Shown one piece after another: positions 6,736 through 13,147 of a stretch of DNA of 47,255 bases. Where the stretch lies: assembly GCA_003152695.1 (NCBI GenBank), contig PMAT01000072.1, positions 1 through 47,255 of the forward strand. Reading direction: 5' to 3'. This DNA is from Acidobacteriaceae bacterium (lineage in GTDB: Bacteria; Acidobacteriota; Terriglobia; Terriglobales; Acidobacteriaceae). A model generated the notes under the pieces. The model saw nothing but the letters and a program-made list of their open reading frames with translations, ran no database searches and had not been told where the DNA came from. The position numbers and the translations under genes are program-made. Within the stretch, counting starts at the first letter, position 1. The number at the start of each line of letters is the position of its first letter.

Positions 6736-6900
6736 GTGGTTACTTTAGTGCGAAAACGTCCTTGACCTCACAGACCACCAAGGCAGGGTCCAGCTATCAT
6801 TAACATCGTATGCGTGAACATCGGCTATGAATTGAGTAGTTACGATCACTTCTACTTGAAATAACAGTAATACCGCATCAGATCAGATTGTTCAGGAAGG
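6736..6900 (+). repeat. Duplicated leader, copy A
   Basis: The first 45 bases (GTGGTTACTTTAGTGCG... to ...ACCACCA) are identical to 7993-8037, and similarity continues with scattered changes and small indels to about 6900. The identical core starts GTGGT and ends ACCAC, so it can fold back, with an inner GTG/CAC pair. A shared TATCATTA block sits a fixed distance downstream. Copy A leads into a truncated tannase reading frame (6905-6955); copy B leads into the first phosphatase-like lipoprotein gene. Confidence 0.75.
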
Positions 6901-6904
6901 GCCG

Positions 6905-6955
6905 GACCCGGCGATCCGTTGTGCTAGCATCGCCCAGCTTCGTCTTCCAAATACT
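6905..6955 (+). pseudogene. Tannase-family gene remnant, N-terminal fragment
   Basis: Read in frame from 6905, the DNA encodes DPAIRCASIAQLRLPNT, which matches DPAVSCASVARLSLPNT just after the signal peptide of the intact tannase gene at 11342. The nucleotide match is also strong (GACCCGGCG..TTGTGCTAGC..CGCCC). No start codon and no continuation of tannase similarity are seen beyond 6955, where sequence unrelated to tannase leads to the DUF4239 gene. This is a dead fragment of a second tannase copy. Confidence 0.65.
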
Positions 6956-7794: not shown

Positions 7795-7992
7795 CGCGTT
7801 GGCGATCGACCGCAACTGAGCCTGACTGAGAGATCCGCTTTTCTCCGCCGCGTCAACAGAGCCATACAAACAGTGAGGGTTTGTGGCAAGTCCACGGGCG
7901 GTCCGCCGACCGTCTTCCGATAGGGCCTGTCGCAGTTGTCAAGGGCCAGGCCCCGCTTGTTCCGCCCTTTTCCTATCTTGCAGCCGCCGCAG

Positions 7993-8155
7993 GTGGTTAC
8001 TTTAGTGCGAAAACGTCCTTGACCTCACAGACCACCAGGGCAGCGCTTACCTATCATTAGCACCGTATGCGTGGACATCAGCCATGAATTGACCAGTAAG
8101 ACGCCTTCTACCTGAAAGACAGGAATATCAGATCATCCAGGAAGAGTCGGTCGCC
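7993..8155 (+). repeat. Duplicated leader, copy B
   Basis: Matches copy A (6736-6900): 45 identical bases at the start, then roughly three-quarters identity including TATCATTA, CGTATGCGTG and ATGAATTGA blocks. It ends about 80 bp before the start of the lipoprotein gene at 8233, so it probably holds that gene's promoter or 5' leader. No gene is seen in the rest of 7795-8232. Confidence 0.75.
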
Positions 8156-8232
8156 CAGCGGACTTCAAGAGCAACACTATCCGCAACATACTGCTCGCGG
8201 TCGCAAATCGAGCGAAGGGATATGCACATAAT

Positions 8233-9741
8233 ATGCGCCTAAATCGATGCTTAACGAAAAAGAGAATGACGGGAGTAATCGTCGCTCTAATCGCCTTGAC
8301 GCTGCTGGCAGGTTGCGGCAGCTCTTTCAGCCCCAAGTCATCAGCGCCGCCAACTCCCGCTTCGCTGAGCGCCGACAACCTCAACCTGATCTTCGTGGTC
8401 AGCGAAGATTTGGCTTACCAAGCTTCCGGAGACGTCAACCCCAGCACGGCAAACCTCACCAATCAGGGTTTACAGCGATCGCTCCTCATGGCCCCGTTCC
8501 TGCAGCAGCAGGTACTGGGAATGCAGAACGTAACCGGCATCTACGCGCTCGAACCGATGACCCATCTGCAAACCGCAGGCAAGTATCCCGACATTGTCCC
8601 GCTGGAGACGATTCAGCAGTTCGCCATGCTGAATCAGACCAGCGCGTCGTATCAGGGCAGCGGGCCGGTTACCGCAAACAGTTATCCTATCTTCGCGTCG
8701 TATTCGTTAGAGGCCGCATTACCGCCCGACGTTGCGCCGCCGGCGTACCTCTGCGCGGCTTGCCAGGGTCTCGATTTCCGCGACCAGGACAGCGACAACG
8801 AAGTTCTGGTTAGCGGTATCGTCAAGGCAAACGCGCCGGGGTTTTATGTTTTCTCCGCGCCATGGGAGACCGTGAGCGCCGTAATGGCGAACCTCAACCA
8901 GCGCGAAGGTTACAACCTGACCCTTCCCGCAAGCTACATCAGTCCCAACTATATCTATGCGATTTCGATCGCGCCGTCGGGAAGCGCCAGCCTGGTTACC
9001 TACAACAACTACCTGACCCCGCCTTCCACCTACCCTGTGCTGCCCCCGCCGCCGCTGGTCGGCACCGCCTGCAACACGCCGCAGACGCAGACATTTTTCA
9101 GCAGAGCCGTGACCGGCGGTCAGGATGGCGCCGTAATCCCGGCGGGGACCAACACCAACGAAACGGTTTACTTTGTCCGGCACGCGGAGGCGCATCCCAC
9201 TAGCTGGTGGGACGACGGCAATTATATTGGCGCGGGGCAGTGGCGCGCCCTGGACCTTCCCAACGCATTACGCGGCAAAATCCAGCCTACGCAGGTTTAC
9301 TCCATCGATCCCGCGGTCGGCAACCCGGGCGGCGACGGTAGTGTCGCATCGTCGTATGTCAGGCCTTCGTTGACCGTGGAACCGTACGCCATCGCCAACA
9401 ACTTACCCTTGAATCTGGCCGCCAGCGTCCCCGTTTTCTCCCAGAATCCACCCAAACAACCGTTATCCACTTTCGCTAGTGCTTTTTTCTTTACCGGGGG
9501 CACGTTCTCTAACCAAACGATACTGGTGGGCTGGGAGCACGATCACATCCCACCGACCGTCAATGCGCTGCTCACGAGCTATCACGCCAACCCCCAACAA
9601 TTGGCGCCCAAATGGCCGGACACCGACTATGACACCATCTGGACGGTGAAGCTCGACGCCGTGGGCAACGTGACGGTGAACAACGGGATGTGCGAAGGCA
9701 TCGATTCCGGGACGCTGCCGATAACGCCTCCTCAATTCTGA
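8233..9741 (+). CDS. Histidine-phosphatase-fold lipoprotein, copy 1
   Basis: A 502-residue exported lipoprotein. The signal ends LLAGC|GSS (canonical lipobox). After a unique N-terminal domain (residues about 45-290), the phosphohistidine motif appears as VRHAE at residues 315-319 (R316, H317), followed by GAGQWRALDLPNAL, the usual Q/A/L helix of the histidine phosphatase superfamily. The second catalytic region is WEHDHIPP, residues 434-441, with H436 and H438 available. Thus the active-site set looks intact, although the phosphatase motif sits unusually late in the protein. It has a 67-percent-or-so similar tandem neighbour at 9809 (estimate by eye). Its first 22 residues resemble the tannase leader at 11342 rather than that neighbour. 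Substrate unknown. Confidence 0.75.
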   Translation: MRLNRCLTKKRMTGVIVALIALTLLAGCGSSFSPKSSAPPTPASLSADNLNLIFVVSEDLAYQASGDVNPSTANLTNQGLQRSLLMAPFLQQQVLGMQNVTGIYALEPMTHLQTAGKYPDIVPLETIQQFAMLNQTSASYQGSGPVTANSYPIFASYSLEAALPPDVAPPAYLCAACQGLDFRDQDSDNEVLVSGIVKANAPGFYVFSAPWETVSAVMANLNQREGYNLTLPASYISPNYIYAISIAPSGSASLVTYNNYLTPPSTYPVLPPPPLVGTACNTPQTQTFFSRAVTGGQDGAVIPAGTNTNETVYFVRHAEAHPTSWWDDGNYIGAGQWRALDLPNALRGKIQPTQVYSIDPAVGNPGGDGSVASSYVRPSLTVEPYAIANNLPLNLAASVPVFSQNPPKQPLSTFASAFFFTGGTFSNQTILVGWEHDHIPPTVNALLTSYHANPQQLAPKWPDTDYDTIWTVKLDAVGNVTVNNGMCEGIDSGTLPITPPQF

Positions 9742-9808
9742 ACGTGTGTCGGCGCAGTGACTAAACGCGGATTATGGAGTTTGCCGAAAGTTGTAAGAAG
9801 GACTCACA

Positions 9809-11314
9809 ATGAATAAGCCTACCGTTGTATGGCTGCCGTTCCTGGCCTTGGCCATGACACTGCTGGCAGGCTGCGGCAGCTCTTTCAGCCCCAAGTCATC
9901 AGAGCCGCCAACTCCCGCTTCGCTGAGCGCCAACAACCTCAACCTGATCTTCGTGGTAAGTGAGGATTTGCCTTACCAAGCTTCCGGCGATGTCAACCCA
10001 AGCACGGCAAACCTCACCAATCAGGGCTTACAGCGGTCGCTGCTCATGGCCACGTTCCTGCAACAGACGGTACTGGGGACGAACAATGTAACCGGCATCT
10101 ACGTACTCGAACCCACAACCCATCTGCAAACGGCAAACCATTACCCCGACATGGTGGCCCTTGAGACCATTCAGCAGTTCGCCATGCTGAACCAGGTCAC
10201 TATGTCCAGTGACCAGAAGGGCTTCACGCCACGTGCCAACCACAGCTTCCCGCTCAATGCGTCCTATTCGCCAGCGTCGATACCCAGCGGATTTCCTGTC
10301 CCGTCGCCATTCTGCCCGAATTGCCAGGGGCTCGATTTCAACGACCGGGAAGGCGACAACGAGGCCCTGGTAACCGGCATTGTCAAGCCAGACGCCACGG
10401 GCTTCTACGTCTTCTCGGCGCCATGGGAGACCATCAACAGCCTACTGGCAAATATCAATAAGCTCGAAGGTTATAACCTCACTCTTCCGGCGGGCTATAT
10501 CAGTCCCAACTTTATCTACGCGATTTCGATCACGCCGTCGGGAAGCGCCAGCCTGGTCACCTACGACAGCCACATTACCCCGCCTGCCACGTACCCGGTG
10601 TTGTCGCCACCACTGGCCAGCGCTGCCTGCACGGCGCAGACGCCTTTCAGCATCACCGTGACTGGCGGTCAGAATGGCGCTGTCATTCCGGCGGGCATCA
10701 ACACCAACGAAACCCTCTACATCATCCGCCACGCCGACGCGCATCCGCAGCTCTACTGGGACGACAACAACTATGTCGGCGCCGGTCAATGGCGCGCCCT
10801 GGATCTTCCCAACGCCCTGCTCGGCAAAGTTAATGTTGACCAGGTATATTCGAACGACCCTTCTCAATTCGGCCCAGGTTCGGTCTTATATTCGAGCGAC
10901 GGTTCCGTCAGGTTCTCGCAAGACCACAACTGGTCGACGGTTGCGCCCCCGTTGACCGCTGTACCGTACGCCATCGCCAACAACTTGCCCTACAATGTGG
11001 TCACCAGCTTCGACCTCTCCGATAGCACCGTCGACCAGGAGACCAGTACTTTCTTCTTCTTCGTCAACGGCGGCCACTTTTCCAATCAGAGGGTGCTGCT
11101 GGCGTGGTCTTTCCAATTTATACAGCCGACAATCTTGAAGCTGCTCACGAGCTATAACGCCGCTCAACAGGCTCCACCTTCCGACGAGTGGCCGGACAAC
11201 GACTATGACACCATCTGGACGGTCACCCTTGACGCCCACGGCAACTTGAACGTGAACAACACCCTGTGCGAAGGCATCAACACCACGCTGCTGGTTACGC
11301 CTCCGCAATTCTGA
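9809..11314 (+). CDS. Histidine-phosphatase-fold lipoprotein, copy 2, degenerate active site
   Basis: A 501-residue tandem paralogue of the 8233 gene; both share LLAGCGSSFSPKSS and long identical stretches in the N-terminal domain (for example DVNPSTANLTNQGLQRSLLM). The first motif is IRHAD, residues 306-310, with R307 and H308 kept. The second catalytic segment reads WSFQFIQP, residues 433-440, so both histidines of copy 1 (WEHDHIPP) are replaced by Phe. Loss of the second histidine should abolish normal phosphatase chemistry, making this copy a binding or scaffold variant, or neofunctionalised. AAGGA lies well placed before the ATG. The next gene, the tannase, starts 27 bp downstream, so the three genes are probably co-transcribed. 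Confidence 0.75.
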   Translation: MNKPTVVWLPFLALAMTLLAGCGSSFSPKSSEPPTPASLSANNLNLIFVVSEDLPYQASGDVNPSTANLTNQGLQRSLLMATFLQQTVLGTNNVTGIYVLEPTTHLQTANHYPDMVALETIQQFAMLNQVTMSSDQKGFTPRANHSFPLNASYSPASIPSGFPVPSPFCPNCQGLDFNDREGDNEALVTGIVKPDATGFYVFSAPWETINSLLANINKLEGYNLTLPAGYISPNFIYAISITPSGSASLVTYDSHITPPATYPVLSPPLASAACTAQTPFSITVTGGQNGAVIPAGINTNETLYIIRHADAHPQLYWDDNNYVGAGQWRALDLPNALLGKVNVDQVYSNDPSQFGPGSVLYSSDGSVRFSQDHNWSTVAPPLTAVPYAIANNLPYNVVTSFDLSDSTVDQETSTFFFFVNGGHFSNQRVLLAWSFQFIQPTILKLLTSYNAAQQAPPSDEWPDNDYDTIWTVTLDAHGNLNVNNTLCEGINTTLLVTPPQF

Positions 11315-11341
11315 GGGCCACTCAAATCGGAAGGAACGGAC

Positions 11342-13147
11342 ATGCAGATAAGTAGATGCTCAACAGAGGCGAGAATGACTGGCGTTATCGTTACTCTAAT
11401 GGCCATTTGGATGGTTATCTGCAGTAGCGGCTGCGGTGGTCCCGACACTGTTCGAACAGACCCGGCGGTCAGTTGTGCTAGCGTTGCCCGGCTTAGTCTT
11501 CCCAATACTCAGATCACCAAAGCAGAATTCGTGCCGGCCAACTCTACACCTTCCACTACTTATCCAAATTTGCCCGATATGCCTGAGAATTGCCTGATTC
11601 AGGGAACCGTGGACACCCGGATTGGAGTTCCTGCGCCTCCGATGGATCAGTTTGGCAATCTGACCGCAGGAACAGGAAATCCAATTTATGCCATTCAGTT
11701 TGAATTGAGGATGCCTACGACTTGGAATGGTGACTTCTTTTTCACGGGAGGCAGTGGGAACGACGGTGTGGTAGGGGAGGCGGTTGGTCAGAGCCTGGGC
11801 GGGGGCACTGCCTTTTTGCCGGCACTCTATCGCGGGTTCGCAGTTATAACTCAGAATTCAGGCCATACCGCCACTACGAACATTGATCAAAATGATGGGT
11901 TTGGATATGACCCCCAGGCTAGATACGACTACGGCTATCAGCAGACCGGGACCTTGACCCCTATCGCGAAGTCCATCGTGAAGTCGTATTTCGGCACTAG
12001 CCCCGTCCACTCGTACTATATCGGGTGTTCCAACGGAGGGCGGGAGGCTATGGTGGCCAGCCAGCGGTGGGGCAATATGTTCGACGGAATCGTGGCTGGC
12101 GATCCCGGCTTTCGGCTTCCCCACGCCGCGATTGCTGAGGCATGGGATACACAACAATTTGCCAAGGCAGCCGTGGCTGTGGGAACCACATTGGACCCCA
12201 ATGGAAATCCTGTTCTTATCCCCGGCGCAAGCGAATCGGACTTGGCGCTTGTAGGGCAACTCGTGCTTCAGGCGTGTGACACCCTCGATGGACTACAGGA
12301 CAATATGATTTTCAACATGGCGGCCTGCAAGAAAACATTCGACCCGGCCAGCCTCAGCGCGCTTCAGTGCCCGGGAACGAAAACCCCGACCTGCCTGCTT
12401 CCTGAGCAGATTTCGGCGATTCAGAAAGTGTTCGCGGGACCGGTGGATTCTCAGGGGAATCCACTCTACTCCGACTGGCCGTACGACGTGGATATCAGCG
12501 ACGTTTATTGGAGGATGTGGACGGTTGGTTACATATCAGCGCCAAACAATGTTGTCACCATAAACTATGCCGCCAACGATACCCAGGGTGCGCAATCAGC
12601 GATGTATCTCTTCTCGACGCCACCAAATCCTTCCTTGAATATGTTCACCACGCCAATGGACGATTTCAATAGCGAGATAAATGCCACGGACCCTACTTTT
12701 ACACAGTCGGCAACGACCTATATGGAAGCAACCTCGACGAACCTGGATACATTCAGGGCCAATCATGGAAAGATAATCTTCTATCACGGTGAGAGCGACC
12801 CTGTGTTCTCGATGTACGACACTGTGAAGTACTATGAAAATCTGACATCCAAGTATGGGAACGACACGGGGAGCTTTGCCAGACTGTTCCTGATTCCCGG
12901 GATGAACCACTGCGAGCATGGGAGTTATGCGCTCGACAGCTTCGATCCCCTTACTGCAATCGTCAACTGGGTAGAAAAAGGCACGGCCCCCGATTCCATG
13001 ATTGCTGGCACGTCACCGAACAGCACGGCCCTGCCTGCTGGCAGAACCCGCCCCTTGTGTCCTTATCCGCAGTTTGCGCAATATACGGGCGGCCCAGGAG
13101 GCAGTGAAGATGCCGCGAGTTTCACGTGTGTAGCGCCCAGTGATTAA
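11342..13147 (+). CDS. Tannase/feruloyl esterase family lipoprotein
   Basis: A 601-residue exported alpha/beta hydrolase. The leader ends SSGC|GGP, a lipobox-like site. The tannase-family CS-D-HC arrangement is complete: nucleophile in GCSNGG (C229, S230), acid in GESDPV (D486), base in MNHCEHG (H523, C524). C229 and C524 would form the disulfide next to the catalytic Ser and His. A lid-domain calcium-type stretch CDTLDGLQDNMI is present. Family members cleave gallate or hydroxycinnamate esters of plant polyphenols and sugars; some hydrolyse MHET. A GGAAGGA ribosome site precedes the ATG. Last gene of the lipoprotein cluster. Its base composition looks less GC-rich than the core genes that follow. 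Confidence 0.88.
   Translation: MQISRCSTEARMTGVIVTLMAIWMVICSSGCGGPDTVRTDPAVSCASVARLSLPNTQITKAEFVPANSTPSTTYPNLPDMPENCLIQGTVDTRIGVPAPPMDQFGNLTAGTGNPIYAIQFELRMPTTWNGDFFFTGGSGNDGVVGEAVGQSLGGGTAFLPALYRGFAVITQNSGHTATTNIDQNDGFGYDPQARYDYGYQQTGTLTPIAKSIVKSYFGTSPVHSYYIGCSNGGREAMVASQRWGNMFDGIVAGDPGFRLPHAAIAEAWDTQQFAKAAVAVGTTLDPNGNPVLIPGASESDLALVGQLVLQACDTLDGLQDNMIFNMAACKKTFDPASLSALQCPGTKTPTCLLPEQISAIQKVFAGPVDSQGNPLYSDWPYDVDISDVYWRMWTVGYISAPNNVVTINYAANDTQGAQSAMYLFSTPPNPSLNMFTTPMDDFNSEINATDPTFTQSATTYMEATSTNLDTFRANHGKIIFYHGESDPVFSMYDTVKYYENLTSKYGNDTGSFARLFLIPGMNHCEHGSYALDSFDPLTAIVNWVEKGTAPDSMIAGTSPNSTALPAGRTRPLCPYPQFAQYTGGPGGSEDAASFTCVAPSD

Follow-up and report, generated by a model that had tools for sequence, protein, structure and literature searches.

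Enzymes of the histidine phosphatase (HP) superfamily share a catalytic motif that consists of an Arg-His pair, a second Arg and a second His, and the fold is also known from pseudophosphatases such as tau55, which is inactive. Another of these, Cf60 of Dictyostelium, is reported to be without acid phosphatase activity (PMC7926622), and a literature search found no paper on tandem histidine phosphatase domains. The tannase family (PF07519) includes the MHETase of Ideonella, for which published work gives the reference catalytic residues and describes Arg411 as binding the carboxylate of mono(2-hydroxyethyl) terephthalate (PMC7568301, PMC6461665). Two genes for lipoproteins with predicted HP folds, here called A and B, adjoin a gene of the tannase family, C, in a stretch of 47,255 nucleotides from an Acidobacteriaceae bacterium (contig PMAT01000072.1 of assembly GCA_003152695.1), hereafter the window, which is a contig of genome G000 (4.5 Mb, 141 contigs). 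Genomes, contigs and the loci compared with the window are designated by G-, C- and L-numbers, respectively. The cluster is real and unusual, comprising two tandem-HP lipoproteins that are probably an active/dead pair and a tannase that is historically linked to them; its anatomy is well supported, and that the proteins have a substrate or pathway in common is conjecture.

The three open reading frames (ORFs) lie on the same strand, separated by 67 bp (A-B) and 27 bp (B-C), and the three-gene cluster ending in a tannase-like esterase that an earlier note on this DNA had placed at 8233-13147 stands as described. A and B are exported lipoproteins and paralogues of each other, with 65% identity (322/498 columns) and an RHA motif in each (residues 316-318 of A, 307-309 of B). 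The lipobox of A is LLAGC, and because its cysteine (Cys28) is invariant in 18/18 aligned family members, lipid anchoring of A and B is well supported. The same note took all three proteins to be exported and lipid-anchored, which is upheld for A and B; C has an export signal and a cysteine at the expected place (Cys31 of CSSGC, residues 27-31), but, judged by eye, this motif is not a textbook lipobox, so that C is at most a putative lipoprotein.

Neither A nor B exceeds any cut-off in scans of Pfam and NCBIfam. Residues 66-127 of B, in the N-terminal domain (N-domain), gave a sub-threshold match to the SixA phosphohistidine phosphatase (E 0.19, 11.5 bits versus a cut-off of 74.5). Pfam searches at E-values up to 1 with A, B, the two domains of A and eight single-domain relatives returned few sub-threshold matches, none of them to a histidine phosphatase family; a sequence search of the PDB with A gave zero matches, and PDB searches with sequence profiles for its two domains gave nothing significant.

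Structure prediction points to an HP fold in both halves of A. The structure predicted for A with the help of 18 family members (mean predicted local distance difference test score, pLDDT, 64.7; predicted template modelling score 0.67), matches the HP part of Rv2985 over residues 48-262 (Z 11.2, root-mean-square deviation 3.2, 151 residues aligned), PGAM5 over residues 291-495 (Z 10.8, deviation 3.9, 169 aligned) and PhoE over residues 309-494 (Z 9.6). The N-domain of A, modelled separately (mean pLDDT 64.2), matches Rv2985 best (Z 11.1, deviation 3.2, 147 aligned) and SixA with Z 10.0, whereas the best Z without a clear relative is usually 7-8 according to the comparison tool's own note; all 50 matches listed for this model are, judged by their titles, HP-superfamily or HP-domain proteins. 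Going by the model of A, the N-domain of the two proteins most likely adopts an HP fold as well, in degenerate form, and with both halves HP-like A and B would be tandem-HP proteins. A profile comparison of the N-domain with the C-terminal domain (C-domain) gave a weak match (E 9.5e-4, 65 columns in register, probability 22%), which agrees with internal duplication. A new or unknown fold for residues 45-290 is rejected, since the structure matches are to the HP fold, and the description of this domain as unrecognised in the earlier note is corrected by structure prediction. That note had also allowed that its proposal would fail if the domain simply belonged to some phosphatase already described; the domain is predicted to have the fold of one, yet as a second, degenerate copy.

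By alignment, the catalytic residues in the C-domain of A are Arg316-His317, Arg377 and His436. The Arg-His pair is invariant in the C-domains of all 27 aligned rows. Of the other two residues, the second Arg lies in YVRP of A and the second His in WEH, and both are retained by 9/9 A-type proteins and by all nine single-domain relatives, which represent those of 19 single-domain loci with an ORF readable on the + strand of the locus (18 were examined for readable ORFs, L022 being left out for an internal stop). All four residues are also kept in six copies from genus g9 and in the complete copy of G449, the second copy of G449 being cut after an ambiguous base and its C-domain not scored. Both the second Arg and the second His are lost in the C-domains of all eight B-type proteins, and in the N-domain VVSEDL- and SAPWET-type motifs replace the catalytic Arg-His and the second His in 27/27 rows. 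B is still constrained despite its lost catalytic residues: ratios of nonsynonymous to synonymous substitution (dN/dS), which are point estimates from pairs that are not independent, are 0.25-0.44 for the whole gene and 0.31-0.49 for the C-domain in six B-B comparisons, and 0.26-0.45 and 0.16-0.38, respectively, in five A-A comparisons. The likeliest interpretation of the aligned residues is that A and B are an HP phosphatase and a pseudophosphatase paralogue, so that the claim of two phosphatase-fold proteins survives as to the fold (modelled for A) and needs amendment as to the active site of B.

Phylogenetic trees place the B-type rows on one side of a branch (91/92 in a tree of 20 proteins, 82/90 in a tree of 27). 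G032, which belongs to another genus, has one A-type and one B-type gene, suggesting that the duplication is older than the genus of the window; B-type genes were seen only in that genus, in G032 and, as a fragment, in G287. The tandem form is present in 12 of 300 genomes of the family (as fragments only in G287), any match being present in 40, and a profile of the N-domain matches 17/397 genomes of the order, 6/399 of the class and 2/396 of the phylum, in samples that overlap. In G449, of another family, tandem-HP proteins carry immunoglobulin-like (Ig-like) He_PIG repeats before the HP domains (L103 275-4238); such repeats are associated with surface proteins. Single-domain secreted HP-like proteins with the intact catalytic set are encoded at L016, L017, L019, L023, L026, L027, L029, L032 and L039; eight of the nine (all but L017) were scanned against Pfam, none scoring above a cut-off, and they are apparently a family without a model, with one member from Mucilaginibacter. 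This distant single-domain match apart, the titled relatives are metagenome-assembled genomes of Acidobacteriaceae or Acidobacteriota, and names beginning with bog_ or palsa_ are borne by four of the titled Acidobacteriaceae relatives; in habitats of these kinds, polyphenol breakdown is debated (PMC11153144, PMC8084988).

The third gene product, C, matches the Tannase family of Pfam (PF07519) with an E-value of 2.6e-107, and its best PDB sequence matches are MHETase chains (1.2e-115). It possesses Ser230, Asp486 and His523, with a Cys229/Cys524 pair flanking the Ser and His. Thr406 of C aligns with the Arg of a QRVSGFS stretch that fits Gln410, Arg411, Phe415 and Ser416 of MHETase, and this substitution at the Arg411 position argues against MHETase activity and in favour of another aromatic or related ester; a MHETase-like plastic hydrolase is accordingly disfavoured.

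The linkage of the tannase to A and B is real and recurrent within one genus, but does not constitute a conserved intact three-gene system. The protein-level search for tannase sequences took in all 28 loci where A or B is present, whole or in part, and for G449 the entire genome; the DNA-level test took in 17 loci. An intact tannase adjoins A/B at one of the 28, that of the window, and traces of tannase are present at five more: G115:C91, G139:C119 and G240:C106 by protein search, G000:C110 and G173 by DNA search. None was found at the remaining 22, of which G213:C205 and G115:C13 carry only the leader element that precedes A in the window, nor was any seen at the loci of other genera (g9, G449, G997, G032, G033 and G293), some of which are cut by contig ends; for this reason absence is weak evidence at some loci (for example the fragments of G287 and the 3.4-kb contig of G641). 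The conserved pairing with tannase genes that had been envisaged is recorded at several loci by relics and by a common leader; with an intact tannase it is confined to the window. Among 16 tannase match rows in 15 genomes there are five close orthologues (at least 74% identity), all five less than 4 kb from an A/B gene or relic, although 12 of the 15 genomes were picked for carrying A/B and five of five is not an unbiased rate; the farthest is a 31-residue piece in G240, with an internal stop, 3.9 kb away. No close orthologue was found in G187, G200 and G208, the only genomes without A/B that were searched.

The order of the pieces suggests how the locus was rearranged. Contig C69 of G115 has the leader, a complete tannase gene, an intergenic stretch and a 5' relic of A; contig C91 of the same genome has a leader stub, a 34-codon tannase tail, A and B; and G139 has a leader stub, a tannase tail and A. 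G000:C21 and G115:C69 are collinear except that the tannase is missing from the former, whose leader runs into an A-like start. The site of the tannase gene of G115 is clean at this locus (L086 3050-3051), and the adjoining flanks are 90-94% identical. The tannase position of G173 (L048 2035-4014) is occupied by other DNA, with an ORF of 310 codons and a partial second 5' end of MeaB. Within 6.4 kb of the window are four tannase traces, namely a 51-base relic with a leader, the fusion at the start of A, a tail relic between A and B, and the complete gene; as a control, the window outside 6.7-14.7 kb contains no tannase-like DNA at E 0.01. Of the four junction tests that were positive, three had scores reached by 0/500 shuffles, including the start of A against C, and the fourth by 2/500. 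Homologues of A align at the DNA level only from about 8291. In G000 and G173, A is fused to the leader and start of a tannase gene, and so stands behind that leader. The simplest reading of these arrangements is that the locus is a tannase-HP tandem array, collapsed by deletions, with one common leader (Table 1).

Ten copies of the leader were found in six of nine genomes of the genus. Nine belong to loci of the tannase or of A/B, if the emptied C21 site and the copy upstream of the relic and bestrophin-like gene are included; the tenth, in G187, stands ahead of a short ORF for a metallophosphoesterase-like lipoprotein. From this distribution it is plausible that the leader places exported hydrolases under common control. 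An abundant mobile repeat is a disfavoured interpretation of the leader, only three copies being present in the genome of the window, and the idea that it strictly marks the tannase-HP set is weakened by the copy in G187. The ORF behind that copy (L115 4815-5468) matches PF00149 with an E-value of 9.3e-4, just under the cut-off, and its homologues (33-36% identity) are on other contigs of genomes of the genus.

Table 1. Features of the A-B-C cluster and its upstream flank, in window coordinates.
Feature	Coordinates	Strand	Remarks
A: lipoprotein, two predicted HP-fold domains	8233..9741	+	502 amino acids; N-domain 44-292, degenerate; C-domain 297-502
B: paralogue of A, probable pseudophosphatase	9809..11314	+	501 amino acids; C-domain without second Arg and second His
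C: exported protein of tannase/feruloyl-esterase family PF07519	11342..13147	+	601 amino acids
Leader element before A	7957..8232	+	78-79% identity over about 250 bp to the tannase-gene leader of G115
Chimeric signal-peptide start of A, about 60 bp	8233..8292	+	homologous to 5' end of C
Tannase 3' relic between A and B	9742..9790	+	last codons, stop and flank; 0/500 shuffles
Leader copy 2, before bestrophin-like gene	6736..6905	+	DNA match
Tannase 5' relic	6905..6955	+	matches C, from around its codon 40, at 44/51 bases
Bestrophin-like membrane protein, PF14023	7018..7794	+	stands behind leader copy

The upstream neighbour of the cluster is the bestrophin-like gene (PF14023). On the 3' side are genes for MeaB and methylmalonyl-CoA epimerase, whose relation to the cluster is not evident. 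Downstream of B in G213 (L050 6920-7698) there is DNA 81% identical to the bestrophin-like gene of the window.

The explanation that best fits the cluster as a whole, and is judged somewhat probable, is an exoenzyme set made up of HP phosphatase A, pseudophosphatase B and esterase C. The C-domain of A would be a working phosphatase that proceeds through a phospho-His317 intermediate with the participation of Arg316, Arg377 and His436, and its N-domain a dead copy kept for structure or for substrate binding. B, as a pseudophosphatase, would bind a ligand or pair with A instead of cleaving, and C may split an aromatic ester of the galloyl or hydroxycinnamoyl type outside the cytoplasm. Under one leader, the three might operate as a small exoenzyme set that scavenges phosphate and aromatic acids from plant-derived matter, and they could conceivably form a joint pathway whose substrate is a phenolic or phosphorylated compound.

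Several observations weigh against this explanation. No sequence search gave A/B an above-threshold match to any named HP family, the confidence of both structural models is modest, and so are the best Foldseek E-values for the two (4.1e-4 and 2.7e-4). The protein of G240 keeps the second His without the second Arg, and that of G997, which is grouped with A, has Ser at the second His; the C-domain of B is somewhat less constrained than that of A. The B-type row of G032 is long-branched, and a tree that unites the seven B genes of the genus to the exclusion of it is not rejected (P value of the approximately unbiased test, 0.285), which leaves the dating of the A/B duplication insecure. As for the tannase, its intact adjacency to A/B is confined to the window, A-family genes of other genera have no adjacent tannase, and the genomes searched were mostly chosen for A/B. 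In G173 the A-B pair is retained at this site, yet a search of its genome detected no tannase. The junction score reached by 2/500 shuffles is that of the start of A against the start of the G115 tannase, and the test for a tannase tail gave a negative result for the DNA that follows A in G139, G063 and G293 and for the 3' flank of B in the window.

Some of these points are shared by the strongest alternative, a serious contender but not the expected outcome, in which the exported proteins A/B and the tannase have no functional connection and are neighbours by history only, having been duplicated and shuffled by a recombination-prone leader and short repeats. It would account for the rarity of intact adjacency, the occurrence of the relics mostly in one clade (G000, G115, G139 and G173), the presence of the leader before the bestrophin-like gene and, in G187, before the metallophosphoesterase-like ORF, and the retention of A/B in G139 and G173, where no intact tannase was found. 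It is opposed by the proximity of all five close tannase sequences to A/B genes or relics and, in G000 and G173, by the fusion that joins A to the leader and start of a tannase gene. The exoenzyme reading might also be carried further, to a previously undescribed set in which a surface tandem-HP phosphatase, a conserved pseudophosphatase partner and an esterase of the tannase family, all under one leader, remove phosphate together with aromatic acyl groups from an ester in peat that is both phosphorylated and phenolic, but this is rather unlikely. Quite improbable is a non-enzymatic function of both A and B, their HP folds being used at the cell surface for ligand binding or adhesion: every complete copy read has an N-domain devoid of catalytic residues, part of the C-domain set is lost in G240, G997 and B, and the G449 members bear Ig-like repeats, but retention of the full set in 9/9 A-type proteins, the complete G449 copy and the six copies of genus g9 is hard to explain without catalysis.

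With A and B interpreted as phosphatase and pseudophosphatase, the locus adds a family of secreted tandem-HP lipoproteins with a probable enzyme/pseudoenzyme split, and makes operon rearrangement visible, since complete genes occur alongside fusions at the 5' end, stubs of the 3' end and a site that has been emptied. A and B resemble the HP superfamily (PGAM5, SixA, PhoE, RosC and the HP part of mycobacterial MutT1/Rv2985) in the predicted fold of both halves, and the C-domain of A has the Arg-His pair, second Arg and second His, but they differ in that a single secreted lipoprotein combines two HP domains, of which the first is degenerate, and in passing no Pfam or NCBIfam cut-off. The single-domain secreted proteins of the RHGEKP type in Acidobacteriaceae and Mucilaginibacter are 27-31% identical to the C-domain of A and have the four catalytic residues in the nine aligned, but they comprise one domain, and protein searches detected no tannase at their loci, most of which were covered with 1.5 kb of flank. 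C shares the Ser-Asp-His set and Cys pair of PF07519, and has Thr406 in place of Arg411 of the Ideonella MHETase. B resembles the pseudophosphatases Cf60 of Dictyostelium and tau55 (a PDB match in Foldseek) in its presumed HP fold, but whereas those proteins are eukaryotic, B is a bacterial lipoprotein encoded beside a probably active paralogue.

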